In this document: positions 1-36,642 of the stretch, in pieces | Layout: every line of letters begins with the position of its first letter | Numbering within the stretch: the stretch's first letter is position 1 | Assembly: GCF_037975245.1 (NCBI RefSeq) | Contig: NC_092569.1 | Span: 20,205,001 to 20,269,000, forward strand | Length of the DNA: 64,000 nt | Direction: 5' to 3' | Source of the DNA: Apostichopus japonicus | Taxonomy: Eukaryota > Echinodermata > Holothuroidea > Aspidochirotida > Stichopodidae | Made by a program: the position numbers and the translations under genes | The notes under the pieces: model-generated | Told to the model about the DNA's origin: nothing | Database searches by the model: none | What the model saw: the letters and a program-made list of their open reading frames with translations, nothing else

Positions 1-332
1 GATAATAACAGTGCAAAATAAAGCTTGAGGGTGGAATTCTGTTCTCTTCTTGCAAATAAAATATTATTTAAATACAAGTTTATTTGATTGGTGTGTGTGT
101 CTGTTTGCATTGTTTCGTCTTGTATTTGAAAAAAAAGGTTTAATTAACCATTTCTCTCTGCTTGTACAAGATTGAAGATAGTATATTGATAGTATATTGC
201 ATACAGTGAACCATAGATGCTTAATTATATGTTTTGTCTTTCAAATGTTTTTGTCCTAATTTTCCTGTCGGTTTTATTTAAATCATAATTTAACTTTTGA
301 ACTCTTATGACTTGATTTCTCTTTTGATTCAG

Positions 333-8538: not shown

Positions 8539-11500
8539 CTATTCAGAACTGCTCTCCTTGAGTGTAGCATACATTATAGTGTTAGAAGCAGAATGATGAC
8601 AACATGAACTAACATTCTTAGTTGCAGTCACACTTTCCCTTTGCAAAGAACTAGGACCCTGAAGCTGTTCGAAAAGTCGTTTAGCATTTAGAAATGTCGA
8701 ATTAACATCATTACTATCTGTGGAGTGAATATCATTGATTCCCCCACGAGCTGTCGGGTCCCTTTCAATATGTTCTTCCCCTTCTTTATTTAGAAAAACT
8801 ATCTTCTTTTTCCGACATTTAAGAGTGTCTGTTTCATAGTTGAGTTTATCTTGCGTTGGGCAATCTGTCACACCTGGTATTTGATGCGCTCTACATACCT
8901 CAATATCAACGACAGCGTAAGGCTCTATGAGTTCATGAAAGCATGCTGAACTAGTTTCGCCCTTCTCGTCTTCTTCAATATTTTGAAGTTCATCAACCTC
9001 TTCATGATCCTGAGAAGATGGAGAATTAGTTGATTCCAATATTTCTTTTACTGATTGGTCAAAGAATTGACATGAAGCTCCTCTATATGTCTTGTATGTC
9101 ACCACACCAGGTTCAACTTCAAGATTGCTATCTTCAATTGCAATATAAGTTGAAGGTTGATCCATATCGACAGGAGCAGATATTTTGAAGGATCCCACGT
9201 GATAAGAATGTCTAACACAGCATCTATTCCTTTCCATTGTAATTTCATCTTCATTATCTACATTAAAGGCGTCACAGTTATTTATTCCGCTACCTGTGCG
9301 TGACAAATACGAATCCAGTGGACACTCCCGTGCTCGTCGCCACCATCGTGTTATGCTCCTTAAAACACCCGGGCGGCATCTGTGAATAGTAATATGGAAA
9401 AAAAAACATGAAACAAGACAAACACAATAAATAACCCTCAAACTAAAACAGAACATATATCTTTGAAAATAGCCCCTCGTCTTTCACTTCCTATATCCCT
9501 CGGGCCAATATTTAACCTGCACCAACACAATGACAGTTGTAACGCCATAATTCTTCTTAACATTTTTTAGCTTTGCAGCATAGGCATTGGTACTACAGGA
9601 ATAATGTTCAAGACAGGGATTATTCAGATGATCGGCTGTTTTGGTAGAACCTTGTTCAAATTCTCCCTATATTCACAGTTTTTTTTGGTAAGTTTTTTCA
9701 TTCTGTAATTTTCCCAATGTTGCTGTTTGCTTTTATAAAAAAAAATACTGCATAATGATTATGGAGCTACCTAGAGTTATCCAGTCCCCAAACTATGGCG
9801 TCGAGCTCATGCGTATGACAAACGTTTGACATAGACCATTCTATACTTACTTGGAAATGAAATAGACCGAGCCAATAACCGACATGCACCCGAGGATAAA
9901 TGACGTAGAAGATATAAGGAAATAAATTCCACCGAAACCGCTTTCTGTAAATTAAAATGATTCACCAGATCAAACCAAATAAATTGGATACTGGATATTT
10001 CGTGAACCAACATAAGTTTCATTTTACACTGCCATTAACAGTTTATTCAAAACGATATAACTTTTTTGTCTTATTGAATTTAATGCTGTAAGCTAATTAC
10101 AATTGTTTAGCCATAGAATTTTGAATCGAGACAATAACTCAAATAATAATAATTTTATACCGCAATAACTTGTTAATCATTAAATGTAAGATAAGAGATA
10201 AGATAAGATAAGATAAGATAAGATAAGATAAGATAAACTGTATTGCATCCGATAGGGAAATTACATGCTTGCAGATAAAACAGTAAGATATAAAAACGAT
10301 ACTATACAACAATAAGAGAACAAACAGCAGGACAATAAAAGCATAAGAAATGCTAATAACAATGAACGGGAACAGATGGGCCGAAGCTCACAGAATGGCA
10401 AGGAATAAAAAGTATAAACAAATCACAAACGGTAAATATGATAAGAACCCAATGAAAGAAGGAAAGACAAAGGCAAGAGATTAGCGATTAAAAGATGCAT
10501 TAAAAATTCTAACAGCTTGTCCCATGAAAGATGAGGGGCAACGATTAGTATGAGCCTTCGGAGGTCTCATCCTCCCACTACGAGGGATAATACAATTATT
10601 TAATGGAGCGTGGAGAGGGTGATCGATATCCTTGAGAACTGAATGAAGCTTATCATCAACCCGACTATCAAAGACCTCGTCAACCATTGGCAAGCGTTTC
10701 CCAACAGCCCTACCTGCCCGTATAACAGTATCATCTAACACTTTCTTGGATGTCTTATTTATGTTACCAACCCAGGAAGTTATGCGGTATGACCAAACAC
10801 TACTAATAATAGAGTTGTAAAAAATGGATAAAATGTTCTGGTTCACGTCAAAAGAGACGTTTGGCAACATACTCAACATGTGCATCCCACTTTAGCTGAT
10901 CATCCATAACTACACCCAAATATTTGTACTCAGTTACCCTATCCACTGTCTTACTGTCAATGACCACAGGTTCGGGCTCTATCTTGTTCGCTCTCCGGAA
11001 GTCTATAATGAGTTCCTTCATCTTGCTGACGTTAAGATGGAGATAATTCCTGTCGCATTCAGCAACAAAATTGGCAATTTGTTCACGGTAGATCCGGTCA
11101 TCGTCATTTTTAATCCGGCCAACGAGAGCAGTGTCATCCGCGAACTTGATGAGCGGACAGCTGAGGTCAGTGGAGCGTATTCCGGAGGTATACAGAGTGA
11201 ATAGGAATGGTGCTAACACAGTGCCCTGTGGTGCTCCAGTGCTACATTCCATAATGTCAGATACAACATCACGACCGATACGTACAAATTGTGAGCGGTT
11301 AGTGAGATAGTCCAATACCCATCGAACCAAAGCATGTGGCACATCATCAGATCCAAGTAAAACGTTAGCTAAAATATGAGGTTGCATCGTATTAAAAGCA
11401 GATGAAAAATCAAAGAACATGATGCGAGCGGAGACGTTACCAGATTTAGAGTCTTCGAGATGGGAGTATAATGTGTCCAATGTGAACAGGAGTGCATCGT

Positions 11501-14500
11501 CAGTGTTGCGTCCCTTCCTATATGCGAACTGGTGATCATCCATTAGGTTTACAGTTAGCCTTTTGATATACTGCAATATAAATCTTTCACATGATTTCAT
11601 GGCTACGGAAGTGAGCGCCACCGGACGAAGATCATTCATGCTGGTGATAGTTGACTTTTTGGGCACCGGAATAATACAGGATTGTTTCCATAGGCGAGGG
11701 ATGCACTGGGTCCTAAAGCACAAGTTGAAAATGTGGGTGAAGATATATGACAATTGATGGTTACATAGTTTCAAAACTCGCGGTGAGAGTTTGTCCGGTC
11801 CAGCTGATTTTGATGCGTTCAGCCGGGAGAAATCTCGAAGTACATCATCCTCTGTTATGGTTAGGAAAGGCGCGGACTCCCCGGAAGTTACTCTGAGAAT
11901 ACGTTCGATTTCATCCGTGAAATCGTGGCAATCGAACCGGTTATAAAATGAGTTCAGTTGATTGGCGTAGGTTTGGGAGTATTCTAGTAATGAGCAATGC
12001 TTCGAGCTACCGTTAGTATAACCGCTCATCAAACGCATGCCGGTCCACACATCCCTAATGTTGTTTGTTGTGAAATTATTTTCGATTTTCCGTTTATAAG
12101 CATCTTTCTCTTGTTTGATTACAGAGTTAATCTCCTTCTGAATTAGCTTCAAGTCATTTTTAGAACCCGTTCTGAATATCAGTTTCTTCTTATTGATCAA
12201 CTGTTTCACCCTTTTAGTAATCCATGGCTTGTTATTGGGGTAACATTTGACTTTCTTCGTGGGAATGATGGCGTCCTCACAAAATTTGATATAGGAGCTG
12301 ACGGTGTCCGTTAATTCGTGAATATCATCGGCAGTGTCAACAAACATTTTCCAGTCCGTGCGATCAAAACAGTCTTGGAGTTGATCCAGGGCATCATCCG
12401 ACCATTGTTTGATTGTAATTACCCGCGGCTTTTCACGCTGGACGACAGGCCTGTACTTTGGTAACAGGAGAACGAGGTCATGGTCGGCTTCACCAAGCTT
12501 AGTCAACTGGGATGATACATAAGCGTCTTTGACGTTGGTGTAACAAAGGTCCAGAGTCGATTCCCCCCGTGTTGGACAATTGACGTGTTGATAAACCGTA
12601 ATCCCGGGTGTTTCATTGATCCATGGTTGAAATCTCCATTAACCACAACAAGGGCATCAGGGGCTTTAGCTTCCAAATCTTGAATGGCCTTAATCAACTC
12701 AGCACTACCCGCCTTGGCAACGGACTTGTCCGGTATGTAAACAGTACAGACTAAAACGTGTGAGAACTCCCGCGGTAGATAAAATGGCCGTACAGAAACA
12801 GTTAACATTTCCAGGTGGGGGGGTGCAAACATAGTCCTTTCTGTAAACATTATTCGGGTGACACCACTTCTGGTTGACGTAAACACACACACCTCCTCCA
12901 CTGCATTTACCAGCCGCTTCCAAATCCCTGTCACCACGTACCAGTTGGAATCCGTCGATGTTAACATGATCGTCACTATGGTTACCTGTCAACCATGTCT
13001 CTGTGAACGACACAATACAAGTATTCCTGAAGTCCGACAAATATCTCACACTCGCACAAAGTTCATCCATCTTGTTGCTGAGAGATTGAACATTTCCCAT
13101 TATGATTGAGGGTAAATAAGGCCGGTTCTTACACTGACTATTCCTTCGTTTGACACCCCCTGCTTTCCCACGCTTTCGTCGCCTCATCTCTTTTGGTAAT
13201 AGCATATCTGGTAGTCCTGTACCGACTGCGCATCTAGTACCGATTGCGCGAAATTCCGATGGAGTGTAATAGAAGACTGTCCGGGGGCCATTATGAAAAA
13301 CCTCGCCATTTCCGTGGGAAACGATACAAACAGTCCCAAACACAACCAACAAAACGATAAACATCCACTTAGAGCACATATTGACAGCATTCGGTGGATA
13401 AAACAGCGACAATAGAACGATGAAACATGGAATTCGAGAGGAAACTGCAAGCTGTGTCGCCACGCGAGCAGCGCCACATATATAGATGTACCACATTCAA
13501 TTACAAATGGAATTATGCAAAATAATCATTTTCAAAATATTATATTTTGGTTGGAAACGACAGTACTTGGAACGTGATCCTGCAACATTTCTGGTATGTT
13601 TAAAAGTCATAAATCGGACCCTTTTCTTAAAGTTCACCCTTTATACCAAACCCAAAGTATTATGTATATATATATATTGTTTCTTGTTATAATTTCAAGG
13701 ACTTGAATAAATGTGTTTCAAACTCAACGACCTTTTATACATATTTCATGTAACATTTATATAGCAAATAAGAAAAGGGATTATTTAAGAATAGGTTGCA
13801 ATATACAAGAAGGTAAATATTGTTTACCAACAGTGGCAGCAAAACTTGGTACAGATCAACATCAAGTGTGAACATAATAGCAAATACTTATGATACTGTA
13901 CGAGCACGATTAAAATGTCACCATTACACTATTTTACCACAATGTTGAAGAGGATAGGTCAAAATTCATCCAAATCCTATGAAATGTCGAATTGAAAGTG
14001 AAATAGTAAGAAAAAGTTGAACTTACTCCTCTTAGCAGCCTTTTGTTTCCAAATTGCAATTCTTCCACTGCCTCCGCATTTTTCGGCTCCCGAACAAAAT
14101 ACACCATTTTCAAAGCAAGACTTCTTGTGCACATCTTTAGAAGGGAGTACGTCTTCGCACAAGCATTCGTTACCTCCAATGAGACCGTTGAATGAATGTG
14201 ACATACATTTACGTTGACATAACTCTAAAGTTAAATCCGGAAATTTACCACCGAAATGGAAGATTTCTGAACTATCATTTGAAGAATGATGAAAGCAGCC
14301 CTGGTATTGATCGTCTTAATATGTAAATAAATATGAAATATGCAAACACGTAAATTAGGTATTCGGATATTCATTTAATGAAGTAATACATGTTGATCAA
14401 TGAAATCGAATATGAAATACAGACTCAATGACGAACGCACAAGAAAACGACACTGTGAATTGAAATAGTTCACGATGTTCCTTGAGTAGTTTATCCGAGG

Positions 14501-16432
14501 TAAAAACTCAATAACAGACTCCAGAAAGACAACATAATAACATTGTTAATATACAATTTGTAAAAACATACAAAATTACGACCTCACAATGGATTGCTAC
14601 GTCATCGTTTAATTGAGTTCTACACGGTGTTCTTTCATTGTGTAATATGAAGTACTAACTCAGAAATGGACTCCAGAAGACATAGTTATGACAAATTGAA
14701 ATTGAGTATTACATGCTGTTCTTTGATGCAGAATCTAGAAATACAGATGCCCTAACGACCTCACCAGTAATCATTACGTTATCGTTTAAACGAGTACGAC
14801 ACGGTGTTCTTTCATTATGTTTTTTGAAGTACTAACTCAGAAATGGAATATAAACAATGTCAAGCTTTGATGTAATATGGAGAATAATAAAATCGAAACT
14901 AATTGACATTGTTAACATGTGAAAGTATATGCTGCCTAAAATCCAAGCTGTAACATTGCCGTGGTAACTTAGCAAACTTTACAATGAGCAAAGTTAGTGT
15001 TTATTTTATTGGGCTTGAAGATTAATTTAATAACTTTTTTATTTCCGTTAATGTTACTTTATTGAATGTATTTTTTTTTTTTTATTTGCATGATAGAAAT
15101 TTTGGAAGTTGGTGTAAGATGGTTGCCAAGACAAATGAAGATAAAATGAGAACAATTAAGTCACGTGATATAATTGTCCACAGGCTATTACATCGTTTTA
15201 CGGCGTATGATATATCGTATAAGTGACCATAGGAAAACCTAATAGAATATAACAGTATCAATATTTTCTCTTCTGAAGTGCTTTGGTATCTTAAATGAAG
15301 ATGAGTCATTTTCTTTCCATAAGCATATAAGAAATGTTGGTTTAGAGGTATGCAAACCCTATCCTTAAAATGTTGACAACAGTCGCTGTCTTTATATCCT
15401 TATTCTTATTATTAAGTTTTTCTTCTTTTTTTTTCTTTTTGGGGAGTCTCCTACTTTGTTAAGCCTTGCAGGCTTTATAGGAGACTTCCCGTCACACTGT
15501 AAATTGTGATGAAACAAATAAATATACAAATACAAAATATCCTACCTTGATACACGGCCAGAGCCTGTTCTCCGCCACATTTCACAGCTCCCGCACAGAA
15601 TGTATTGCACTCTTTGTCAGAAACATTTGTGAGTTTTTCATATAGGCCGTCATCCCCGTTTCTGCAGTGGCAATATGTTCCATTTTCCAAGCCGAAGTGT
15701 GTATAACTCCCAACGGCACAAAACCGAGAGCAATTTGAATGGCTTAAATCACTTTGATAGAGCCGTATTTCAAATTTTTCGTCAAAGTTACCAGAAAAGC
15801 ATCCTAAGTAGTCTCTGTCTGTTTAAGAACAAACAAAAATGATCTTGGTCGGATTGGGTGAAGCGATTTACGAAAATAATATGATGACATCGAAAAGAAA
15901 AACTGGTTTACTGAGGTCACGAAATGGGTCAGCCAACATTTCTCAAAAAGTTAACCGTCTTGAGAATTTTAATTGATTTACACTATTAGTTTTATCTTAA
16001 GTTGAAAATGTGCACGTCTTTTCTGCACGTCTTCCTCTTCTATGTCCTAAATGCTCTTCAAGACAAGAAGCATTTTCGTTAATGTTTAGCATGATTATAC
16101 CTTTATATAAACTTTAGCCCTGTTTACGCATTGATGAAACACTGAATAGTAGGAGGTATACCGTTCTGGAATTCTCTTTGTCTAGAAATTATAGCAATTT
16201 AAATGTTCCTTATTCTAACATAGTTGAAATATAATGATGTTGAAAAGAAACGCATTGTGAATTTCAGAGGAATTCGCCCCGTATCTTACTATGAAGGTTG
16301 TATTGTAGATTCATTATGTAACACAGAACGAGTTCATATTTTTCAGACAACAAAAGTGAGCTCACCTGCAAAACACAGCATTGTTTCACACAAAATCACA
16401 ATTATAAATACTTCAGTGCTTGAGAAACACAT
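8539..16432 (-). CDS. WSC-domain receptor A with ITIM-like tail
   Basis: Five exons on the minus strand: 16432-16366, 15818-15546, 14314-14027, 9944-9851 and 9379-8539 (TAG). All have AG/GT borders and phases 1,1,1,2, giving 520 codons without a stop. Residues 1-22 are a signal peptide (MCFSSTEVFIIVILCETM..). Residues 23-113 and 114-209 are two WSC domains, each with eight Cys and the closing KCGG motif; WSC domains are small Cys-rich modules thought to bind carbohydrate. Residues about 213-238 span the membrane (GGIYFLISSTSFILGCMSVI). The 280-residue tail is acidic and Ser-rich. Its tyrosine motifs include STYIAI (Y319) and TIMYATL (Y511), both fitting the ITIM pattern, plus EPYAVV (Y395). 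The LINE at 10190-13480 lies in intron 3, in sense orientation. Signalling is inferred from motifs only. The start is the ATG opening the signal exon; a short upstream ORF precedes it. Confidence 0.85.
9452..9850. other. Intron 4 of receptor A
   Basis: Together with 9380-9451 this lies between the membrane exon and the tail exon. Apart from short T- and A-runs nothing is recognised. Confidence 0.6.
10190..13480 (-). mobile_element. L2/CR1-type LINE, frameshifted
   Basis: A nearly complete non-LTR retrotransposon on the minus strand. A basic leader (about 13190-13130) precedes an apurinic-type endonuclease with NVQSLSNKMDEL, FTETWL and GDFNHGS. The reverse transcriptase follows with DFSSAFNT, GAPQGTVLAPFLF and FADDTALVG, then a C-terminal part (FYNSIISSVWSYRITSWVGN). 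The 3' end carries a (TATCT)n tail, read as AGATA repeats at about 10190-10236, a simple-repeat ending typical of L2-like elements. The frame is broken at least three times: near 12815 at a run of seven G, near 12595 where one base appears lost, and near 10850 where a short deletion removes several residues after KRLF. It cannot make an intact protein. The 5' limit is uncertain and no target-site duplication was found. Confidence 0.9.
13497..14026. other. Part of intron 3 of receptor A
   Basis: AT-rich sequence between the LINE 5' side and the second WSC exon. No exon, RNA gene or clear repeat is seen. Confidence 0.55.
14315..15545. other. Intron 2 of receptor A
   Basis: Separates the two WSC exons. 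A stretch of about 45 bases around TTAC/CGTTTAA..GAGT..ACACGGTGTTCTTTCATT occurs at about 14600-14660 and again at 14770-14840, a short diverged direct repeat. No further exon is recognised. Confidence 0.55.
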
Positions 16433-19400
16433 GATCAAATGTATCCATGTAATCCTGTGCAAAGATTATGACTTCAATTCCACCATAATATGGTACAGAA
16501 GAAACTGTCTCATTTCAATCATGAACAGTTACTCGTACAGTGTGCCTCATGCCGTACTTGCTACAAACCAACCTTCAAAGTTGTCTTCGTTGATTAAGAA
16601 CATAACATATATGAGAATATGCCTTTATCGACTGCACGCTAACCTATACCGAAACCAAAAGCATCGATATGCTTCATTAGTATCCTGTATAATGGTATAT
16701 TTAAAGAGAATATTAAGATATATCGGTTATAAAGAAACCGAAACATGCTTACATGCATTTCAGTGATTTAGAAATATATGCTACATTATTAAAATGAATA
16801 GCTGTGTATTCTATACAATTCTTATAGCAAGGCCTGCATTGAAAAACCGAACAGAAAGTATTACCTGAGATAACACTCGCATGCCTAACACTTTATACTG
16901 TTTTAGTTTGCTACAGTAATTGACACTGATATCGTAGTCCTGCGGATTATTTTAGCTTATTCGCTTCTCAATCTTTCTTGTATATGTGCACCCGGTTTAT
17001 AGCCTTATCATTGAAACTCAGTTTAAAGATTTATCAGTTAAAAGTGCGAGAAACCGTTAATCAGTTAAAACTGAATGTGTGTAAAAATTTCTTAACATGT
17101 GTTATTTCCTACCGAGAAAGAATTAACAACAGAATGCCGAAACACACGAAGCGGCGCATAACGACTGATATGTGTTAACTCCTTACCAAGACAGGATTTG
17201 ATTGATTCGTGGCAATTTGCCATTTTGCCAATTTGCCAATTTGCTACAAGTCGCTTATGTGGGTTTCTACTGTCCTGGCCAATACGATATGATAGGACAA
17301 TGGCAGTCCTGTAAAGTGATTCGACTTATTAGATTCTACATTGTTATGTCATGGTTTTCCTTAACCTATCCGGGAAATTTTAATATCGTGTTACAGTTGA
17401 AAGAATCCGAAAAAACATGTTTTGGCACGGGGGACGATGTGTGTGGTGGCCGTTGGTGTCCAAAGTCCTCGGAAACTTGATTTCGGTGTTTTCTTCTTTA
17501 TTGGTTACTGAACTCGTTTTCAGAAATATGCTGTTTTAATTGAACACCGTTTCCTCTTTATATTAAAACATGGGATATTAAAATATCTAAAGGTGAATAT
17601 TGCCCTCATTTCCATTTGAAGTTTAACTGAGATTGACATTTGCCTATTGCAAAGAAGAAAAGAAATCACAATAAATATAAAAACCTTTATTTGAAGGAAC
17701 TACATAGTGAAGTAAACCGGCCCATCGCTTGATTGCTCAACATTCAGTGACAACTTCCGTGCGTAATAATTTTGTCCTCGCCACGGAGGTTTGTGGACGT
17801 AAAGTTTGTTATCAAGAAAATGCATATTGTCATGCATATTGAAATCCCTAAACTGTCTCACGAAACAATTTCAACTTGATAATTTGTTATGCCATTTCAT
17901 CATATCATATCAATATCATTAACAGTAGTTTTACAATAGTTATCTTCTGTCGTTGCTGATTTCCAGATCTCTGCGTTAGGTTGTAAATTGATATGGTATC
18001 ATTATTTTCGATTTTTCGTTGTGATTACGCATTTGCAAGAGGACAGTTCCATGGGGTCAAATTCAAATACGGATTTACCATATTGTTATGTAGTAACTTC
18101 AAAGTTGTATCAATACCGTTCTATACTGAGTTCAATATATCGCGAGCGGCTCATCACAGTTAATTTACTCCATTACTCCTATTGATAGCGGTAAGGAAAT
18201 GTATAGATTAGAGGAGGACCTTGCCACATTACAATATTCTGTGTCAGTTAGCTATTTCGTCTACATCTGCCCATGTAGGCAGATGCTTTCAAAAATTACA
18301 TTCCTAAAACAAGTGTTTGTATTAATCATTGAAATTGTGACATCTGGAATATTAGCTCAATATGTCAATGCTCGTTGCATTTTGAATTTTAACAATTTCT
18401 CTTTGAGTAGAAATAGTAGTTTTCTTTTCTCTGTAGATAACTGTTTTACAGGAAATAAGGAAAGACGAAAGCCTTGTTTACATTACTTATAATCATACAG
18501 TCTGCTGTTCACAGATGCATTCACAAATTATCGCTAAATTTAAACCAGAAATGCAAAAGTGCACGGTGCTTATGTAAATAGTCGTGCGTTTGTGGTATCT
18601 GAGACTAGAAGGTTGCGGTCTTTAGATATCATGGTTCCTAAAGTTTCCACGATTTTATCTATGTCACTGAAATGAAACGACCTCTCAATTGTATGTTTAA
18701 ATTCAATGTATGTTTAAATTTAAATTCATTTCAAATAGTGAATTGTACCATCTATCCGTATTTATGCACCGGCTAATTAGTTGATATGTATTCGTGAGTT
18801 TCCTTAATTTGTTGTAAGATTAAGGGTTTAAAATGTTTGATTTTATTTCCCACTTTCACATTATTCCAAACAAGACCAAACATTTAAAAGGAAGAAAAAG
18901 ATAATCTTTCAACAATTGTGAAAAACAGAATACACACTTTGCTAATAAACTATAAATATATCAATTAATGAACTCGTCCATCCAGACCTTTTCATATCGA
19001 TGTACATTATTATCATGCATGACAATAACCCTTGACCTTATCCAGGAAGAACCCCCGACAAAGTGCAGTGATTGTTTGAAATAAACATCAAATATATATC
19101 AACTGTTTCAGGCATTTCCTTAGGTCATCATTATTATAATCCAAAGTAATAACCGTTGACCTTCGCGAGGCTTGTGACGATGTGATGTGATTGCTGGTGA
19201 TGATGTGATGCGATTGGTTGAGAGAAATAGTACTGCAACCAATCTTACGTTTTAACTGTAAAATAGTAAAGAAGGCGAGAGATCCAGGTTTGAATCATCC
19301 TTCCCTTTGGCTGCAGATAACTGTATTTGCCCTTTGCCCTCCTAATCCTGGTAGTGGGTTCTTCTTCTCACGTGAAGCACCTAAGTACAACATATGAGAT

Positions 19401-20639: not shown

Positions 20640-23600
20640 TTAGATATCATATAACCCTAATCCATACGCATCAAGTGAGTCAGCTTCCTGTGAAGGTCCC
20701 GTCTCCCTTCCTACCGTTACATTGCCTGTATCTTGTAAGGAATGATCTATTGATTCACAAAGAGTTCCATGATATGATTCAACAACATACTCCACGTCGG
20801 TCATATCATCCGGGTTCTCAGCTAAATATGAATGACGTACATCTATATTTGGTCTTCTTTCGTTATCATATTTAATTGTCGGTTTGGGGCGCATCTGCGT
20901 AAGGTACCAACGTGAAATCGTAGATCTGGTGGCAAAATGTAAGATTAATGAAGATAAACTAATTTTAAAGAGAGAGAAAAAATACACCAAGTCTTCATGA
21001 CATTACGGCATGCAGAGGTGCGCTCGAAGTTATGTCAAAGTGAAATGGTGTACCCAATGTAGAGATATAAGACTATTTGGTCATTTTGATGGATCAGAAA
21101 AAGTTGAACACGCGCATTATCTATCTGTGTTGACATATTCTGATGTAGACACTCAATTCTTATATAAACTATTCCAAATTTATCTTATTTGATTTTTTCC
21201 TTGATGTAGGATTTTTTCGGTCACATTAAAATATTGTTCATTCATACTTAGTAAAGATTCCTAAATCCTATTGGTCCGTTCAGGTCAGCTGACCGTGGTT
21301 AATCCTGTGAGTAACGCACGGTAAAATTACCGGTGGATGAATACAATTGTTACCATGTTTTGTCGTCTGCTTTGCTGAGCTATTGAAATTCATCAAAAAC
21401 ACAAAATCTTGTTCAAAAGTCTTGCAAGATGCCATCACAGGTAAAGGACGCGAAACCATGGATCCGCACTCGAGTCTAGGCCAAAGTGTAGGCTGCACAG
21501 CTGTTGCCTCCAACAATGACATTAACGTTACTGCTGCTGTTAGGGCTGAAACGTCTAACATGTCCAAACTGTTTTCCAAATGTTCTTTCCAAAGTCCTGC
21601 GAATGTTTACTACCAAAATTCATAGTAATATCCGTATTAAAACACCAAACAGTTGTGGATGCTTTGAGTTTAAATATATCCAGTATCTGTCCGTAATTAA
21701 GTGTTCGCAAGGTCGTTATGTTGCTCATAGTGTTATAAAGTTAAAGTTAACGACCGCAGTGCCAAGCACTGTGTAGTGTGTACGTTCAAGTGAGTGTACG
21801 TGTTCAATACAAGGCCTACTATGTTATCGTATGGCTGTATACCATACGTACATGTTTGTCCCTAGAATGGTTGCTATGGGAACCAGAAGCTGTAGGGCAT
21901 TGATATGATGAAGCCAATTAGTAATTGTTTGTAGTTCCTTGTTATTGAGACCTTTCAAAAATAGTTTTATGGCCGCAATATTGCCAAAAATTAGTTAAAT
22001 ATTATTATGGTTCATCTTTTATGAATGACAGCCTTTCAAAGACGTTTCCTTTATCATTATTCACTATCGTTCAGTATTACTTTATAATTGCACATGTACA
22101 TTAATGTTATGCTGGTTGTTAATCGTTAATTCGACTTACGGGGCATCACTTTAATAAATCTTCGGTTATATTTAACCAAAAATGTTTTTATTATGATTTT
22201 TCCCCCACACAAATGGTAGTGTATGAATGAACGGGGTTAATCAACGGTCTAGCGTATGGCGGGCCATCAGTCTCAAATCATGGGAGATCGACTTATACCG
22301 ATTTAAATCGACATATACCAGTTTCCTTCGACATATACCAGTTTCCCTCGACTTATACCAGTTTCATTCTACATATCATCGATTTAAATCGACATATACC
22401 AGTTTACTTCCACATATCATCGATTTAAATCGACATATACCAGTTTCATTCTACATATCATCGATTTATTTTACTTATCATCGATTTAAATCGATGATAA
22501 GTAAAATAAATCGATGATATGTCGAAGGAAACTGGTATATGTCGATTTAAATCGATGATATGTAGAATGAAACTGGTATATGTCAATTTAAATCGACATA
22601 TCATCGATTTATTCTACATATCATCGATTTATTTTACTTATCATCGATTTAAATCGATGATAAGTAAAATAAATCGATGATATGTCGAAGTTAACTGGTA
22701 TATGTCGATTTAAATCGATGATATGTAGAATGAAACTGGTATATGTCAATTTAAATCGACATATCATCGATTTATTCTACATATCATCGATTTATTTTAC
22801 TTATCATCGATTTAAATCGATGATAAGTAAAATAAATCGATGATATGTCGAAGTTAACTGGTATATGTCGATTTAAATCGATGATATGTAGAATGAAACT
22901 GGTATATGTCGATTTAAATCGACATATCATCGATTTATTCTACATATCATCGATTTATTCTACATATCATCGATTTATTTTACTTATCATCGATTTAAAT
23001 CGATGATATGTAAAATAAATCGATGATATGTCCATTTAAATCGACATCTACCAGTTTAAATCGATGATATGTCGAATTAAATTGGTAGAAGTCAATTTAC
23101 GTGGACTTATACCAGTTTCTAGCGTCTCAAATCGACATATACCTATTTAAATCGACATATCATCGATTTAGCTCATTAACATATTCCAAATCCCGATTTC
23201 GGTGATGATTGACATGTGGAGATACATCACGTGTAGTCACCTGACAAGGCGGGCGAGTAATTTAATAGTTCCAAAATTACGAAGCTAGAAAGGGTGTTCA
23301 TCATGGTTATACAGTATGTCAATGGTAATTATGAACAATTACTTGCAAAAAGATTTCGGTGTAACAATAAGGCTGAAATAACAGATATGTCAATGACGTG
23401 CAATTATCTCAATGCAAACTGGGCTTGTCTACCCGAACACGTGGCGCTATAGTATAGGAATACACATGCAACTGAATAGGCCCACAGTACGTACACAGAT
23501 GCAATTACCTACTCCAGTTACACCATAAACAAAGATGATATTGTTCTGCAGTGAGGCCTACTGTAAGGTTACGTTTTAATGTAGCTAAGTATATACCCAT

Positions 23601-26600
23601 GGGGTTTAACAGTTACAGTATTCAAGCTCAAATCATGCATTCCACTGTGCTCGTGTTTATTTTCAATTATTCGCCCGCCTTGTCAGGTGACTTCACGTGA
23701 CGTATCTTCACATGTCAATCATCACCGAAATCGGGATTTGGAATATGTTAATGAGCTAAATCGATGATATGTCGATTTAAATAGGTATATGTCGATTTGA
23801 GACGCTAGAAACTGGTATAAGTCCACGGAAATTGGCTTCTACCGATTTAATTCGACATATCATCGATTTAAACTGGTAGATGTCGATTTAAATGGACATA
23901 TCATCGATTTATTTTACATATCATCGATTTAAATCGATGATAAGTAAAATAAATCGATGATATGTAGAATAAATCGATGATATGTCGATTTAAATTGACA
24001 TATACCAGTTTCATTCTACATATCATCGATTTAAATCGACATATACCAGTTTCCTTCGACATATCATCGATTTATTTTACTTATCATCGATTTAAATCGA
24101 TGATAAGTAAAATAAATCGATGATATGTAGAATAAATCGATGATATGTCGATTTAAATTGACATATACCAGTTTCATTCTACATATCATCGATTTAAATC
24201 GACATATACCAGTTTCCCTCCACATATCATCGATTTATTTTACTTATCATCGATTTAAATCGACATATACCAGTTTCATTCTACATATCATCGATTTAAA
24301 TCGACATATACCAGTTTACTTCGACATATCATCGATTTATTTTACTTATCATCGATTTAAATCGATGATAAGTAAAATAAATCGATGATATGTAGAATAA
24401 ATCGATGATATGTCGATTTAAATTGACATATACCAGTTTCATTCTACATATCATCGATTTAAATCGACATATACCAGTTTCCTTCGACATATCATCGATT
24501 TATTTTACTTATCATCGATTTAAATCGATGATAAGTAAAATAAATCGATGATATGTAGAATGAAACTGGTATATGTCGATTTAAATCGATGATATGTAGA
24601 ATGAAACTGGTATAAGTCGAGGGAAACTGGTATATGTCGAAGGAAACTGGTATATGTCGATTTAAATCGGTATAAGTCGATCTCCCATGATTTGAGACTG
24701 ATGGCCCGCCATACTAGCGTGCGTTACTCACAGGATTAATGCACGATCGGGGGATAATGCAAGCGATGCACGAGGGCGGAGCCCGAGTGCATCCACGCTA
24801 GACCGTTGATTAACCCCTTATTGAAAACCTCACAGACGCAAGGAAACTCGTTCGGGAGCTGCGTGATTTCCTTGGGGTAAACTCATGCCGCATGTATATG
24901 CCAACAGATGACAACAACAGTCATGTTTTTTTCAATAAATATTTGCAAGGATTGAGTATCAGCATGCCTATTCATTAGTCTATTTCATTGTTGAAAACGT
25001 AACCCTTGCTCTTTCTCTATATATCGTGGTATTATGACATTGCGTCATGTAGTATAGATAGAGGAACGGTGATGGGTCCCATCTCTCACACTGGACCCGG
25101 GGCTTCTGAATCCTTAGCATTACACAATTGATATATTATTATTGTTATAACTAGTTTATTTTATGATATAGTAGAATATCGATATTTACCTGCACAATAC
25201 AATTCCGGCAATCCCACCAATTAACACTCCTTCAACAAACAGGAACGCTGTGATGAAATACCTGCTGGAAGTCACGACAGCAGGATCTGTGCTAATGAAC
25301 AATACAAGCTTCCAGAAGGTAAATACAAATAAATAAAACGAGTAGTACATAACCTACACACACACAGGGGAGTAAGAGCTTGGGGGCAAAACATCAGAGG
25401 GGCACTTTCACAACCACCACTCGTTATGCTATATACGATACACACCGGCCATGTCACTTAAATATATATAATGTGTTAGTATGCTATCAATACTAGTATG
25501 GTGCACGTGACTCTATCATCCTGCATACTGTACTACATACTGTACTTCTGTCCATCCATAATTTAGAACTTTCCGAAAAAATCCTCCTGTGTTCATTACT
25601 TGAACAAAAGTCTTTAGCAACCTCGGTTAAATCCTTAGCATGTACAGTTTAAAGATAAATAATTAAAATAAAATATTAAAATTAAAAAACGCTTAAGATA
25701 TCCAAAAGACAGTTCTTCATCAAAGGGGAAAATATTTATTTACCAGTAGGGCACATTTGCTATTTTGAAAAAAAGTGGGGGAGCACGTGCCCCTAGTGCC
25801 CCCTGGTCCTACCCCCTGCACACACATATGTATATGTATACCATAAAATACACACACACACACCTATGTATTATATATATATAGCAAAGATTCAGTTGTT
25901 CATTTCCTGCTGTAATACTGCTCAATGCATGAAAGTAGAGCAAGTGCATAATATAGTATACGTAGCCTATATTTTATGGTAACCTACATCACGTTGCTAC
26001 TCGAGGTTGACGGTCAATGCGGCGATCATAATACAACAGCATAGTTAAGCATGATCATTCTCGTTAGTTAACAATTTTCTCGCTTTGATAATTTGCTTAG
26101 GTCATTGTAAATTGGATTCGTTAACCTGTAACCAACTAATATACAATCCCACGTGAAAGGTAATACATACCTTGAGATGGAGTTGCTTCGGTTGTCAAGT
26201 TGACCTCAACAGGAATCGAGTATGGTGCTAACATAGAAAAGAGAAAAATTTATAGTAAACAGAACATCTGATTCAAACTATTTCAACATTTCCTATTTAA
26301 GTAAGTAAATTTGAAGCAATTTTCACCCTGAGGAAATGTTTTCAATGTAAAATATGTCACGTCACATAACGGTTTTTCCAAGCTCTAAATTCGTGATAAT
26401 TATATGACTGGGGCAATTTTGTAATATTACCACGAATAGCAATAGACTCACTTATATTTTTTAGTTCCTTAATGTGGTCCCAGATTGCAACATATCCATA
26501 ACCTCCACAAGTCTCCCCACCTGGACAAGTTATTCCTTCCTCTACACATTAATGGTCTTCAAGAAACTGAGAGTTGTTTCCGTCCCGCGGAGACTCGAAG

Positions 26601-28506
26601 CTACAGAAACATTTGTTTCCTTCTGCTAAGCCAATGAAAGGATAGGCTTGACAACGTTCCATGCATGATCTAAGAGTTAGTTCGGTAATTGATCCCATGA
26701 AATGAAAGTCGTGGTCAGTCGTATGGTTCAAGCATCCAAAATAAGTAAAATCTGTAGGAAAACAAAACAGGCCAAGTAAATATTTCAGACATTGCAGTCC
26801 TGGATTCTGCTGTAAATTTAATTTTAAAAGAAGCTTTGTTTTTAATTGTGTTCTAGCCGATATTGTCTACGTACGATGTATTGTTCGTATATCTTCAAGA
26901 CTCAACTTGATGTGTGTTACTTGTACAGTACTGTGGTTCCTACGAACACTATATTTAAACAGAAACATCTATGAGTGACTTGCAACAACAACATTGGAGC
27001 TCTTCGTGACGTGTTTGAAAAAGTTGATTTCATAATAATGTGTTCATAGTTCTTAAAGAAGATCAAATTGACCTCATGTCGACGAAACAATGAAAGACAA
27101 TATTTCAGTGACTTACAGTAGCATCAATGCGATGCATTTGTATTTTGTTTTTATGTTTTTGCTCTTAATAGTGTCAATTTAAATGTTTTGTCATATTTAA
27201 CCCACCTTATGTTTTTATATTTAACAACTTACTAGTGTAGACCGCCATTGCCTGTTTACCACCACACGTTGGTCCACCTGAACACAAAGTATCACACCGT
27301 GTATCTGTAACAGTATTGTAAGCCTGGTATTGACTTCGATCCGTCCCACAATAACAGTAAGATCCACACTGAAGCCCCAATAAAGTATAGGTATCCACGT
27401 CGCATATTCGGGCACAAAGTGAGACCGTTAGATCGGTTCGGATTTTTCTTACATCAAGTACACTGGAATGGTTACTGCTATAGCAACCAAGATAGTTCCC
27501 ACCTGTTGGTAGAATGAAACATGCGGTCACAGAATCATCCTTAAAACAAATTCAAAAAAGGTATTGTAGTAACATGAATACGTTAACAAGTAACATTCAC
27601 ATTTAGTTTGTTATTTTTACGAATAGATTTACTAGTTAAACTCTAAAAGAACATAATGTTAGAATAACAGAAAGGACAACACAAACATTGGAAGGAAACT
27701 GACACGTTCATGGTGACATATTCCGTAAATAATAAGTTTCAAGTAAATAAATCCAAAATCTATGACTGGAATTATAAGAGACGAAGAACCTGTGTATATT
27801 TAACAATATTATATCTGATTAGAAAGTTGAAAACAATACTTTGAGATACATACAGGTGGTTTCATGTGGATGAGTTGTCGATCAATATAACTTAGTGTTT
27901 GTTACTATGACAAGTCTGCAGTACATTTATTTCAAATATATGCTAATTATTGTTTTATACATTATCTTACTTTTACCCAATATCATGGTATCTCTTCATC
28001 ACAACTTTACAGAAACAGATAACAACATGTCTTGTGCATTGGTCTTAGTTGTCACGTTAGGGCCTTGTTATTGTAAAAAAAAAAGCAACCTGTGTGAATT
28101 AATTCAGTACACCACAAGTGTTAATACATCTGATTTACTCAAAAAAGTCACACATTTCATATTTTCTACTTCCAAGGAGTTTCGACGAAAAACCTCCTTG
28201 AGTATTTCAAACTTCTATCTAATACGGAATATCGATTATAGATGTAAAATAGCATTCCGTTTATTCTTGTGCAGTATTTACACGAAAATTTGAGAGAAAA
28301 CAAACGTTTAAAAGACTGCCAAAATCTGAGGTTTTACTCACAGAAAATAGATCATTTGCATAGACTATTTATTATGGTAGGGGAATAAAACGTTTGCTGA
28401 GTATAACGTTCATACAACAGAAAGATTTTCGTTACTCACCAACTATACTGACATCCGATATTCCTACCAAACTCATACACGTCACAAGCGTTGTTACATA
28501 ATCCAT
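20640..28506 (-). CDS. WSC-domain receptor B, in-frame stop in second WSC exon
   Basis: Six minus-strand exons: 28506-28440, 27502-27233, 26751-26452, 26227-26171, 25286-25190 and 20925-20640 (TAA), with consistent AG/GT borders and phases 1,1,1,1,2. They total 359 codons. Residues 1-22 are a signal peptide (MDYVTTLVTCMSLVG..). WSC1 is residues 23-112 (NYLGCY .. TCGGKQAMAVY). WSC2 is residues 113-212 (TYFGCL .. TCGGYGYVAIW). A Thr-rich stalk, a membrane span (YFITAFLFVEGVLIGGIAGI) and a 95-residue tail with several Tyr follow; YDNE fits a Grb2-type YxN site. Codon 180 (26551-26549) is TAA, inside WSC2. Every other codon is open. That exon is 300 nt and symmetric (phase 1 to 1), so skipping it would restore a 258-residue one-WSC receptor. 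It may instead be a null allele, a pseudogene or a base error. Confidence 0.78.
22233..24817. mobile_element. 120-bp MITE split by the foldback element
   Basis: Left end GGGGTTAATCAACGGTCTAG (from 22233) and right end CTAGACCGTTGATTAACCCC (to 24817) are perfect inverted repeats, 24 bp long once the inner insertion is removed. The remaining interior (24720-24793) contains GAGGGCGGAGCCC. Net length without the foldback insertion is about 120 bp. No clear flanking duplication was found, and no superfamily is assigned. Confidence 0.72.
22255..24713. mobile_element. Foldback element: 2.46-kb palindrome of sub-repeats
   Basis: Both ends read TATGGCGGGCCATCAGTCTC inward and are flanked by the 6-bp direct repeat CTAGCG (22249-22254 and 24714-24719). 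The arms, about 1.0 kb each (22255 to about 23266, and about 23662 to 24713), are inverted copies around a unique loop of about 390 bp. Most of each arm is a mosaic of units around ATCGATTTAAATCGA, ACATATACCAGTTTC and TTTTACTTATCATCG, themselves often palindromic. The inner arm ends carry CTGACAAGGCGGGCGA and its complement. It has no plausible coding sequence. The structure resembles foldback or FB-type transposons. It must form a very stable hairpin in RNA or single-stranded DNA. Confidence 0.88.
25365..25818. mobile_element. hAT-like MITE in a CA repeat
   Basis: Ends CAGGGG..CCCCTG with imperfect inverted repeats: G-rich, with GGGGGC and GAGGGGCAC on the left and the complement of GGGGCACTAGGGGCAC on the right. 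Flanking CACACACA (25357-25364 and 25819-25826) would be an 8-bp target duplication, but it lies in a CA repeat, so that evidence is weak. No coding capacity. It lies in intron 4 of receptor B. Confidence 0.55.
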
Positions 28507-29774
28507 ACTTCCCAAAGCGGAAGAGTTCCTGCTTTATATTAGAAATTCTCTGTTCAGATGTATGAAATATTGTTTTTCATTAATTCGACGACAGCTTTGT
28601 CTAGCTTTTATATTCGTGTGTACAAGCAGTCCAGTAATGGACAGTTTTACAAAGTGCATACACTCTTGAATGAGAAACAATGCCTAGCACAAAAACCCGT
28701 TACAAATTCTTTATGGATTTGTGTTAATTATTAACATTTAACGTTTATAAAGTGAATGAATGTTACTGATGTGAACAGCGAAACAGACAGTAAATCATTA
28801 GCTTGCCTATATAGCCAGAATATTAATTAAAATATCGCACAAGGAAATGATGCCTTCTGTCAAGGGTGACCGACGAGGTCTGATTAATTCCACATACATT
28901 AAGTTTACGGCTGCTTTTTGGCAGAAGACTGTAATTGCTCTGGCTGGAAATCGTTTCTTCGACAGTTTCAATCCAAACGAACCATTATTTTTGCTTTCAA
29001 AATTAAGAAATACTCCTTTAAAAACTACATTTATTGGTGTAATCAGCATTTCAGCGGTGCAGAGTTTTTTGTTTGACCCTCTTTTTCGTTACTTTGCTCT
29101 AGCATGTTTATATTAAGCCATTGGAGTTGTGTATGACATTTCGATGTCATTTATTATCCTGACATGTAAGACAACAAAACTATCGCTGCAAAATACATTT
29201 GTGAATCAAATTTGGTGAAAATAGCATTCAAATGATCTAGTCTAAACCTATGCTGTTTGTCGGTAATAAATCAATTTAATCAATAAAATCTTACTCTGAC
29301 TGAATAATGGCGATTGTTTCAAAAGATAACTTGTTTCCTTTTCTTTTTTTAAATACCATCAATTTTGAGTTGAAGATAATAATACAAACATGATTGTCAA
29401 TTAGTAGCAAATGTTTCTTGTTTATTGCTTAGTTAGTTCGTGATATTTCTTATCAACGTGATTGAAAGAACTTTACACTAAATAAATAAGACAACAGAAA
29501 CTGTCGTTGTTCGTTGTTTCAAAATACTGCTCCACGGACGATCTGCCGATTTAAAGCCAAACGAACACCGTCTTCCATATTTAAACGAAATAGTTAATCG
29601 GTAGTTGCCAATTCCCGCGCATGCGTTCCGATCACGAGCAATGACTTTTAAAGTCTCACCAACGTACATTATACTCGTCTTGAATCATGTCACATTAAAT
29701 AAACAAACTACTATCTCATATGTATAAATAACGTAACAAATGCAATTTATTTGTATCTGTGTGTTGCATTGAGT
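28507..29774. other. Intergenic, receptor B 5' side to receptor D 3' side
   Basis: About 1.3 kb. It should contain the receptor B promoter. A GC-richer patch near 29570-29650 includes CCCGCGCATGCG, which resembles an NRF1-type promoter site, and a minus-strand donor-like CAGAGTAAGAT occurs near 29297. A non-coding first exon there is possible but unproven. The poly(A) signal of receptor D is at 29746-29751. Confidence 0.45.
29746..29751 (-). terminator. Poly(A) signal of receptor D
   Basis: AATAAA on the minus strand, about 24 bases after the receptor D stop codon. The position so close to the stop implies a very short 3' UTR if it is used. Confidence 0.5.
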
Positions 29775-32460
29775 CTACTCCATCGTTGCGTATACTTCGC
29801 CTACATCGAAATATATAATAGAATCACAATCCGCATCATATCTATCAGCTTTGTCGACGGTCGACGCAGATTCAGAACCACACGTTTTGTCCCGATGAGA
29901 TCTACTGGTATTAACATGATCATCCTTTTTATTAAAAGACAGTGACTTCAGTTTCAGAGATTTCTTTAACTCTGCTTTACCCACAGTATCTTGTATCGCA
30001 GACGGGTTAGTATCATCTGCTTGGTAATAAGTAGAATCTCCAGGTTCGTCTACTGCTGCTGCTGAGGTGTCAGTCAAAACTTTAGGAGGATCTCGCTGAA
30101 ACTTCGATAGGAAGAAACTTGTTGCATTTATCAGCTTCGGGCTGTCAGAAATCAAGAGAGATATAAAGGTCAAATATAGTGTTGGGAAGTTCGTTTCGTG
30201 AAAGACGTTAGACGTTATTCTGATTACAAAATCCAGGAGGTAGACAGATTTCGGTCTATGATTTATTGCTCACAGAATGGAGTGAATGGCGATATATGAT
30301 CTACAATATACAACATTCCGTGTGGAGATATTTATATTTTACTTACCACAATTCGACGAAGCATGAGCAGATATGATGAATAAAAGACACATATTTTAGT
30401 ATATTATATGAATTTACACAGTACCTTAGTGTTAGATATGATGTTACCGATCCAGCTGCAAGGCCAATGCACAGAATTCCAATGACAGCAATGAAGAGAA
30501 AAACTGCACCGTTTCCTCCTGATTAATTTAAGAGAACCATGATTATGATAACAGTTTCTATCCAAAGAAAGCTAATATGACTACACTACATTATATACTT
30601 CATTCCTTGCATCTTTTTAATACTTCGTAGCATCTTTTTTACACATGAAAAGATATGTGATAGCTGTTGGTGTTATTTTACCATGAACGGATTATTACTA
30701 CGTAAGATAAATGGATTAAAATCAAATGAAGACATTGGTAAACAAAGAATCAGCATACGAAATGACAAGAAGATATTAACTGGAGGACAAAACAGTACAA
30801 CTGAGGGCAATTAAAGGAAAAAAATCAATTAATGAAAATGATTATGTTAAGCTATCATCTCAAGATGGTTGTGTTAATTTAAAATAGAAAGTTCGTCCTC
30901 AAAGAAAAATTTGAATAAATAGCAGAAACTTGTTGTATATCATAGTCGTATAATACAAAGGTTAAACTAACACTATCACACGTAAGCACAGAATGACAGG
31001 AAACAAGATCATTTTACTTTCGTTTCCAAATAGATTGAAATGTATATTCCTGAAAGTAACAGTATACAACTTGTTTAAAGTATATAAAATGAAAGGGACT
31101 TTGAAGAAGCCATTTGGTGCAGCCAAAATAATGAATTTCTTGATCATTTCAAAATGACAACAAAATTAAAAAACTAGATGAAATGCCATTCGCCCTACAA
31201 TCTCCAAATGAGTCATGTAGGCCTTCGACAAAATTCGGCAATATTTGTGAATTTACATAATCCTTTTAACAAATCATTGCTTTTCTGTCATAACCGTAGG
31301 CAAAGTGAGAGTGAAATGTTCATCATCATAAAAATACAACAACATGTTATGTGTTTTTACATATTTATGTGTCCTTATTTGTACTCACTTGCAGTGATGT
31401 ATGACTCATTATAATTGCTATTAACTAACAATTTCTCGGTAGACTTCTGACTTAATGGATCTAAAAGAAAAAAAAAGGAGTGCATAGAAAAATACTGTTG
31501 TGAAAGCTGCTTGTCTGCCTAACTACTAGTTTGAAGATTAATCACATATACTTTATTTAATAAGTATACTTGTAAAATCAACACTACATTATAAGGTTAA
31601 GGCTTATCAATAACATAATGCTGACGGCCCCAAGATTTCTTATCATATAAAGAAAATCGACTAAACTAGGGATGAAACGTTATTCAGCCCACGGTGATGT
31701 TAAGAAGAACTTTGGTTTTTAGTACGGCAAAATAAGCTACAATGGTAAACTGTGGTCTGTAGATTTCTACATGGCCCACTTGGCCCATGGTACTATGTGA
31801 TTACATAAAGCCGTAGCTAAATTAAACTTGAAGATTTATTACACTCATCAGCAGTGGTGGTTAATAATTCATTTTCTGTTGAATAATTTTCTGACGTGAG
31901 ACTGTTGTCTGATGACACAATTGAGGTTATCCATTCGTGGTCAGTGGTCCTTCCCTCACCTGAGTGTGAAGCAAAATCCAACTAGATATAATATATCCTT
32001 CATGTAAAGACTAACACACCTTACAACTATATGTTTGCCTTGAGTTTGGCACAATCTGATAGTATGACACTGGACCGTTACAGAATCGAGAACAGATTAT
32101 ACACATATGCTAGCAGTTATACACGTCAATTGATTATATAATGAAGCAGTAAACATGAATCTTCTTTCACGTATATCTATTAGTGTGGGATCAGAATGAT
32201 TCGATAAGAGTAGTCGGTATAGTTTTATCGATGTAAGTCTCTTACACGATTGACTTCCATCTAGTTACAATGGAATGTTACATGGCTTTTATCAGAGCAA
32301 GGTAAAACGTAAAATTCAGCGAAAAAATACAGACCACAAAACAACTCAAAGGACTTGAAGATTACTCAGTAATGAATACATTGAAAGATGACAAACCTTT
32401 GATAAAGGAGAAAGCGCTGACCAAACAAGCAGTTAGCAGTAAAATATGTTTGCTATTCAT
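29775..32460 (-). CDS. Receptor D: WSC-receptor chassis without WSC domain
   Basis: Five minus-strand exons: 32460-32397, 31959-31843, 31460-31389, 30518-30425 and 30141-29775 (TAA). Phases are 1,1,1,2, as in receptors A and B, giving 237 codons with no break. Residues 1-22 are a signal peptide (MNSKHILLLTACLVSAFSF..). Residues 23-84 are a Ser/Thr/Asn-rich ectodomain with several N-x-S/T sites and no Cys pattern. A membrane span follows at about 88-108 (GAVFLFIAVIGILCIGLAAG), encoded by a 94-nt exon of the same size as in receptor A. The tail (about 116-237) is Lys/Asp-rich and ends GEVYATME; SIIYFDV (Y226) fits the ITIM pattern, and VYATM resembles the MYATL end of receptor A. The exon 2 donor (GAGT|GTAATA) is weak, so that junction is the least sure. 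Function is not known. Confidence 0.68.
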
Positions 32461-36100: not shown

Positions 36101-36315
36101 GAGGAAAATCTGCTAAGGCATATGTACTGATGAAAGCCTGTTTAGGCTAAATATGTAAAAGTTAGATTTTTTCCGTATCTCTTATCGTGTTCTTAAAAGT
36201 TTGTTTTCGTTCTAGTTTGCCTTTGAAGAAGATCCTGCTGAGATCGAAACTTCAGACCGTCTAAGTTTTACGTAGTTGGTGTACATCCAACTGAACTGCC
36301 TGTCCATCTGTGTAT

Positions 36316-36642
<327 letters not shown>

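Follow-up and report, generated by a model that had tools for sequence, protein, structure and literature searches.

WSC-domain receptor genes with tyrosine-containing tails in a tandem array of the sea cucumber Apostichopus japonicus

Introduction

The WSC domain is chiefly familiar from the stress sensors of yeast and from Kremen. Fungal sensors of the Wsc1 type possess one WSC domain, a Ser/Thr-rich stalk, a single transmembrane (TM) segment and a cytoplasmic tail of the Rho1 pathway, and the Kremen architecture is kringle-WSC-CUB; neither the fungal WSC proteins nor Kremen are known to depend on ITIMs. Polycystin-type proteins such as PKD1/REJ and s-Themis are not known as two-WSC single-pass receptors. 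Tandem arrays of related single-pass receptors are exemplified by KIR, LILR and SIRP, which have Ig-fold ectodomains and an ITIM in some members only, and for these clusters ITIM function has been proven.

Among invertebrate deuterostomes, passages of one paper (PMC8211107) describe amphioxus BbLcLRR, in which LRRs and a WSC domain are combined with a TM segment and an ITIM-like tail, and which in Jurkat cells suppressed the NF-kB activation triggered through the TCR; those passages make no mention of a tandem array for this gene. Polycystin-1-family receptors are represented by PKD1/REJ in the sea urchin and s-Themis in Ciona, where, according to passages of PMC7018956, the gene next to s-Themis is of the fibrinogen-domain (FReD) type, with a fibrinogen-like egg-coat protein linked in opposite orientation to a polycystin-1-like sperm receptor. 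The sea-urchin SpREJ paper contains the term "WSC domain" (PMC1934368).

Here, we describe genes A, B and D of Apostichopus japonicus, all on the minus strand of a 64,000-nt stretch of DNA (the window). A and B share with the Wsc1-type sensors a WSC ectodomain, a single TM segment and a cytoplasmic tail, but differ in the number of WSC domains, in the stalk and in the tail. As in Kremen1/2, WSC belongs to a type I membrane protein, but the A and B models hold two WSC domains and a tyrosine-containing tail with no further Pfam domain, and in their number of WSC domains and single-pass form they also depart from PKD1/REJ and s-Themis. The likeness to KIR, LILR and SIRP lies in tandem single-pass receptors with ITIM sites in some members; the ectodomains are not Ig folds, and ITIM function is suggested for the WSC array. 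BbLcLRR resembles A as an invertebrate-deuterostome single-pass receptor with WSC and a tyrosine-containing tail, but its LRR ectodomain encloses one WSC domain, as opposed to two in A and B, and its ITIM-like site is HDYDDP, as opposed to STYIAI and IMYATL in A (passages of PMC8211107). It is nevertheless a precedent for coupling WSC to an ITIM-like tail, a combination of which an earlier note on this DNA, made from the sequence alone, knew no description in a gene cluster. Among the matches listed in a search of non-subscription literature, we found no two-WSC receptor with a tyrosine-containing tail.

Gene models

Gene A begins with a signal-peptide exon of 67 nt (16366..16432), which was found in 7/7 A copies, followed by two phase 1-1 WSC exons: WSC1 (15546..15818; Pfam PF01822 E 2.8e-10, 40.7 bits) and WSC2 (14027..14314; PF01822 E 3.8e-8, 33.9 bits), both above the curated Pfam cut-off of 27.8 bits. 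A 94-nt TM exon in phase 1-2 (9851..9944) and a single cytoplasmic tail exon (8539..9379) complete the model. A LINE is inserted within one A intron.

Gene B has a 67-nt signal-peptide exon (28440..28506), a WSC1 exon (27233..27502; PF01822 E 1e-12, 48.5 bits), a 300-nt WSC2 exon in phase 1-1 (26452..26751), a 57-nt stalk exon (26171..26227), a 97-nt TM exon (25190..25286) and a tail exon (20640..20925); a satellite tract sits in one of its introns. In the window copy an in-frame TAA (26549..26551) interrupts WSC2, of which the part before the stop matches Pfam with E 1.6e-7 and 31.8 bits, and five other B copies (c1, c2, c3, c4 and c7) have Gln at this position. The window B is probably a dead copy, or encodes a product cut short ahead of the membrane segment, unless the WSC2 exon is skipped.

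Pfam finds two WSC stretches in A and two in the intact B copy c4, and no other domain in the A and B models, scanned over their exons alone. As modelled, A and B therefore do not fit Kremen, WSC being present without kringle or CUB. Against PDB sequences, the A ectodomain matches 7pz2 (E 3e-5), which we take to be a yeast Wsc domain although the molecule name of the entry is silent on that, and Kremen1 (E 7e-4).

Gene D consists of a 64-nt signal-peptide exon (32397..32460), two phase 1-1 ectodomain exons (31843..31959 and 31389..31460), a 94-nt TM exon (30425..30518) and a tail exon (29775..30141). The exon plan that had been proposed for all three genes holds, with a signal exon of 64-67 nt, phase 1-1 ectodomain exons, a TM exon of 94-97 nt and a single tail exon, to which B adds its stalk. 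The WSC ectodomains, attributed to all three as well, must be limited to A and B because neither ectodomain exon of D contains WSC: Pfam finds none in the D model, and the genome search gives a PF01822 match at 0/6 D copies. This rules out D as a WSC receptor. D is a membrane protein encoded beside A and B that follows their exon plan but lacks WSC and has no clear homology to either.

The wider WSC family

A search of the 671.6-Mb genome returned 82 WSC matches, 67 of them on the chromosome of the window, and a second cluster with further WSC-WSC-TM-tail exon sets. Over their WSC, TM and tail exons, two sets of that cluster, L035 and L036, match the A/B plan in exon order and phases. Eight Cys are invariant in the WSC alignment (18/18 rows). 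In a WSC tree of six genes, with moderate support and long branches flagged, the WSC1 rows form one group (76/86) and the WSC2 rows another (78/73); the paired-WSC plan therefore looks inherited.

The TM segment of A resembles that of L035, with 0/1000 shuffles scoring equally high. Tail similarity is weak (z 3.1 for A-B, 3.0 for A-L036 and 2.8 for B-L036), and in every tail comparison the top of 300 shuffles outscored the observed alignment. The tails of A, B and L036 have RHSY in common, any such 4-mer occurring in 130/3000 shuffles. Because of the WSC tree and the tail similarity, the sequences support placing A and B in one family, as had been claimed for all three genes; for D such kinship is at most possible, as compared with A it has a tail z of 0.8 and a TM P of 0.69, and its two weak signals come from the TM (P 0.017 against L036 and P 0.062 against B, uncorrected over 10 pairs). 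That a clustered family of WSC-WSC-TM-tail receptors exists, as the earlier note had it, we consider very likely given the genome matches and the second cluster.

Tail tyrosines

We defined an ITIM-consensus site as [SIVL]xYxx[ILV] in a cytoplasmic tail. The four motifs singled out beforehand are present. A has STYIAI (9136..9153), which fits the consensus as STYI[AV]I in 7/7 A copies (STYIVI in c1), and IMYATL (8560..8577), kept in 6/7 if copy c7 is taken in a shifted frame, the exception being IMYATF in c5, whose WSC1 carries a stop. D has IIYFDV (29802..29819), which fits in 6/6 copies with D or N as the +2 residue. YDNE of B (20859..20870) is read in 6/6 B copies; it had been listed among the tail tyrosine motifs and is a YxN-type site outside the consensus, and the B tail has no ITIM-consensus site at all. 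Such persistence has little power, as it is judged among near-identical tandem copies of one genome.

The counts are near chance, with no clear excess: three sites in A, B and D (two, none and one) vs 0.93 expected (P 0.063), and four in six family tails vs 2.53 expected (P 0.25). Three second-cluster tails have 0, 1 and 0, with none in L035 or L038. Nor are the ITIM sites conserved above the remainder of the A tail, as variable residues number 1/6 and 1/6 in the two sites vs 46/279 elsewhere. At the level of the family, the ITIM label that the earlier note had given these tails is not supported.

These counts, the lack of special conservation and a pN/pS of 1.15 in the A tail are what one would expect if A and B were real WSC receptors for adhesion, scavenging or matrix sensing whose long tails contain tyrosines as a matter of chance and serve no ITIM-type signalling, and the ITIM-free function of fungal WSC proteins and Kremen fits as well. 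We regard this explanation as the strongest competitor, though a somewhat unlikely one. Against it stand 7/7 B-tail and 7/8 A-tail tyrosines that are identical across the six copies compared (a test of low power) and the RHSY common to three tails. Around their tyrosines, six tails resemble one another more closely than shuffles do (P 0.023 for the sum and 0.067 for the best pair). The pattern Y[AE][VI]x[DEHN][VI] also occurs four times vs 0.025 expected, once each in A and L038 and twice in L036, an excess that we do not count as evidence because the pattern was picked after looking.

As to possible partners, the genome has 82 SH2 matches. On C11, two PTP exons (15.571 and 15.574 Mb) are preceded on the same strand, about 30 kb upstream, by two SH2 exons (15.540 Mb), the layout expected of an SHP-type gene, with stops inside the matched stretch of one of the two SH2 rows. 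Inhibitory signalling by the WSC receptors is possible.

The tandem array

In the array that contains the window, the A and B tails are each present in seven copies and the D tail in six; every copy of the A and D tails in the genome lies within it. Exon divergence is lower than flank divergence in 16/16 comparisons, and splice AG/GT dinucleotides are retained at 159/162 sites, with no loss in A or B and one acceptor missing from D copy c3. Since they recur in six to seven tandem copies with this lower divergence and splice-site retention, the A, B and D exons are more than chance readings.

The same copies also show decay. A stop or frameshift occurs in 2/7 A, 2/6 B and 2/6 D copies read, and the seventh B copy, outside the six read, has a TAG inside its tail match. 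The pN/pS values are 0.80 for A, 0.93 for B and 0.70 for D, near enough to 1 to leave room for relaxed constraint. One might therefore see the array as a decaying segmental duplication, most of whose copies are relics of little function, and the LINE and the satellite tract in the introns would suit such a history. We think this improbable, given that 5/7 A, 4/6 B and 4/6 D copies are open (D c3 among them), that exons diverge less than flanks throughout and that A and B have kept all their splice dinucleotides.

An EGF+FReD gene adjoins A in the window and in all three array units read whole. Together with the linked Ciona pair (passages of PMC7018956), this adjacency could point to a ligand and its receptor being inherited together, as in s-Themis/v-Themis, and serving to recognise self and non-self or gametes, but it may mean nothing because FReD domains are extremely numerous, many on the same chromosome (2731 first-look candidates, 150 of them scored; 106 on the window's chromosome among the 150 matches listed), and, no FReD lying within the second WSC cluster among the matches listed, we consider such a module very unlikely. 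FReD abundance on the same chromosome weakens the case for a FReD ligand by linkage.

Proposed function

At the DNA level, the analysis shows the receptor architecture, the kinship of A and B, tandem amplification, lower divergence in exons than in flanks, and decay of some copies. We lean, by a modest margin of confidence, toward A and B being fast-evolving, rapidly duplicating sea-cucumber WSC receptors whose tail tyrosines probably signal. They would be type I receptors with a signal peptide, two WSC domains, a stalk in B, one membrane helix and a single-exon tail with multiple tyrosines. Judging from WSC biology in general, the ectodomain would bind a glycan or glycoprotein ligand, upon which a Src-type kinase may phosphorylate the tail tyrosines and SH2 proteins be recruited. 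With its two ITIM-consensus sites, A could recruit an SHP-type phosphatase and so inhibit, and B, which has a YxN site and no ITIM site, would recruit other adaptors. For tyrosine signalling through the tails we see the chances as evenly balanced; ITIM/SHP-type inhibition by A in particular is doubtful.

A bolder and improbable extension is that the paired-WSC receptors, expanded in the sea cucumber, are an invertebrate counterpart of the vertebrate paired-receptor clusters, with related ectodomains joined to tails of differing sign, tuned by tandem duplication, and FReD genes as a possible source of ligands. The two ITIM-consensus sites of A would then be set beside the YxN, TxYxxV and Y-A-V-x-x-V motifs of B and second-cluster tails.

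If the tails do signal, an echinoderm would possess arrayed receptors of the glycan type whose tails bear tyrosine motifs, a second invertebrate-deuterostome case beside BbLcLRR for the origin of inhibitory or switch receptors. Whether or not ITIM function is involved, a recently amplified, multi-unit receptor array is a useful and testable locus in an animal whose regeneration and expanded gene families are under study.

Gene models in the window

The candidates A, B, and D, on the minus strand, are real genes, with the following exon plans. A runs from a signal exon of 67 nt (16366-16432) through two WSC exons (phase 1-1) and a membrane exon of 94 nt to a single tail exon of 841 nt (8539-9379). 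B (28506-20640) follows the same plan, with a stalk exon of 57 nt added and a membrane exon of 97 nt, and D (32460-29775) comprises a signal exon of 64 nt, two short phase 1-1 exons, a membrane exon of 94 nt, and a tail exon. Using Pfam, WSC was found above the curated cut-off in each of the two WSC exons of A and of B, although the second one of the window's B could be scored only up to a stop, and no domain besides WSC was found in the A model or in the intact B copy of c4, another unit of the same tandem array. The stop is an in-frame TAA within the second WSC exon, at a codon that reads Gln in units c1, c2, c3, c4, and c7, and the window's copy of B is probably non-functional.

The earlier note had placed all three genes in one WSC family with ITIM-like tails. 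A regex scan of the window returned WSC-type exons in A and B alone, Pfam gave no WSC in the D model, and a genome-wide WSC search gave no match at any of the six D copies; D is therefore not a WSC receptor, and it should be set apart from the A and B receptors.

Repeats are found within the introns of both receptors. The A intron preceding the membrane exon carries a LINE-type element with reverse transcriptase (10190-13500; RVT_1, E 2e-21), and this intron is long in the window, c2, c3, and c5 and short in c1, c4, and c7. In B, the intron between membrane and tail exons contains a long satellite-like tract in which direct as well as inverted repeats occur, at spacings of 20, 41, 61, and 143 nt (22223-24720). 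A long simple repeat with a 3-nt unit, whose translation is poly-Leu/Ile/Asn-like, is located at 36230-36670.

The tandem array and the state of its copies

A search of the genome (671,581,487 bases in 35 contigs) placed seven A, seven B, and six D tails, every one of them within an array that spans about 19.81-20.29 Mb of chromosome C9 (37.5 Mb), and no further match to these tails with E < 0.8 was found elsewhere in the genome. The window itself corresponds to C9:20205001-20269000. The window and the three units that were read completely have the gene order FReD(+) A(-) B(-) D(-), where FReD denotes a gene with EGF-like and fibrinogen C-terminal (FReD) domains; its two copies in the window (294-3945 and 55588-58792, plus strand) are convergent to A and were duplicated along with it. 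Window positions 1-9011 and 55000-64000 represent successive units, with pieces 86-97% identical. Copy c7 of A, located at the window's right edge, runs beyond the window, and its tail is frameshifted. The FReD domain is extremely abundant in the genome, and C9 seems to concentrate expanded receptor and lectin families, with 67 of the 82 WSC matches in the whole genome and 106 of the 150 FReD matches listed.

All seven A copies, six of seven B copies (that of c5, where the genome-wide search gave no WSC match, was left out), and all six D copies were read, the window's included. Full-length open copies number 5/7 for A, 4/6 for B, and 4/6 for D. Stops are present in WSC1 of A in c5, in WSC1 of B in c2 (a separate stop of its own), and in D of c1 and c7; signal exons of B in c2 and of D in c7 were not found in the sequence read, and D of c3 is missing the splice acceptor at its first ectodomain exon. 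Splice AG/GT is retained at 159 of 162 sites, the three exceptions all being in D, and coding exons diverge less from the window copy than non-coding flanks (within 400 nt) in 16/16 comparisons.

The pN/pS values over pairs, which are not independent because the copies are interrelated, point to weak constraint. Six copies of A give 0.80 overall, with 1.15 in the tail and 0.19 in the membrane exon. Six copies of B give 0.93, with 1.59 in WSC2, 2.59 in the membrane exon, and 0.44 in the tail, and four copies of D give 0.70. Parts of these copies are possibly under diversification or relaxation.

A wider WSC receptor family

In a second cluster on C9 (9.10-9.55 Mb), three stretches were read. 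Two of them, L035 and L036, have WSC-WSC-TM-tail exon sets with phases as in the array genes, the scan covering their WSC, TM, and tail exons; L036 includes a stalk exon resembling that of B and a TM exon of 94 nt, and the TM exon of L035 is 91 nt. The scan of the third, L034, showed a WSC pair and found no TM exon. At a further locus, L038, a tail-like reading frame lies close to another WSC pair. In a WSC tree of 18 rows, the WSC1 domains of six genes group together, as do their WSC2 domains (76/86, 78/73; moderate, with long branches flagged), and from this clustering the paired-WSC plan looks ancestral. The receptor family itself is real and expanding.

A TM segment is common to A and L035, with 0/1000 shuffles scoring as high. 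The tails of A, B, and L036 are weakly similar (z 3.1, 3.0, and 2.8), the best of 300 shuffles exceeding the observed score in each comparison; the 4-mer RHSY is common to all three, and any such sharing arises in 130/3000 shuffles. Comparison of D with A shows no similarity in tail (z 0.8) or TM (P 0.69). The TM of D gives P 0.017 with that of L036 and P 0.062 with that of B, likenesses that, uncorrected over 10 pairs, are suggestive at most.

In sequence searches, the A ectodomain matches PDB 7pz2, taken here as a yeast Wsc domain (E 3e-5), and Kremen1 (E 7e-4). Amphioxus BbLcLRR already combines a WSC domain and an ITIM-like tail in one receptor (PMC8211107), so this pairing has a published precedent. 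No two-WSC receptor of the A/B kind was found among the open-licence papers listed in literature searches. A published table includes A. japonicus "putative WSC domain-containing protein 1-like" genes, in passages that make no mention of ITIMs (PMC12784826).

Tyrosine motifs and possible signalling

The genome contains 82 SH2 matches, and on chromosome C11 two SH2 exons are followed by two PTP exons on the same strand, a stretch consistent with an SHP-type gene. From these, machinery for tyrosine-tail signalling probably exists in the genome; this is silent on its use by the A, B, and D tails. Many PTP exons among the matches listed are on chromosome C2, an apparent expansion (150 of 548 candidates scored).

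The tails are better described as tyrosine-bearing than as ITIM-like: sites matching [SIVL]xYxx[ILV] are present in A (STYIAI and IMYATL) and D (IIYFDV), but B has none, and their rate is not clearly above chance (3 vs 0.93 expected, P 0.063; over six family tails, 4 vs 2.53, P 0.25). Among six A copies (window and c1-c5), 1/6 residues vary in each motif and 46/279 in the tail, and 1/8 tail tyrosines varies. STYIAI aligns with HSYLAE of B by computed alignment, or with VEYVVE if placed by eye, neither being an ITIM. The sites are genuinely present in the tails but are unremarkable in number and, as measured in A, in conservation.

Tail motifs in the second cluster include TVKYSTL, AYAVSEV, and EYAVSHV in L036 (6557-7696), TEYTRV in L035 (7606-8001), and AYEISHV in L038 (617-1414). 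A post hoc pattern, Y-[AE]-[VI]-x-[DEHN]-[VI], occurs in L036 (twice) and L038, and PYAVVDI of A fits it too.

Across the six tails, tyrosine-centred windows resemble one another more than shuffled ones do, with P 0.023 for the sum and P 0.067 for the best pair, which speaks in favour of some tyrosine code common to these tails.
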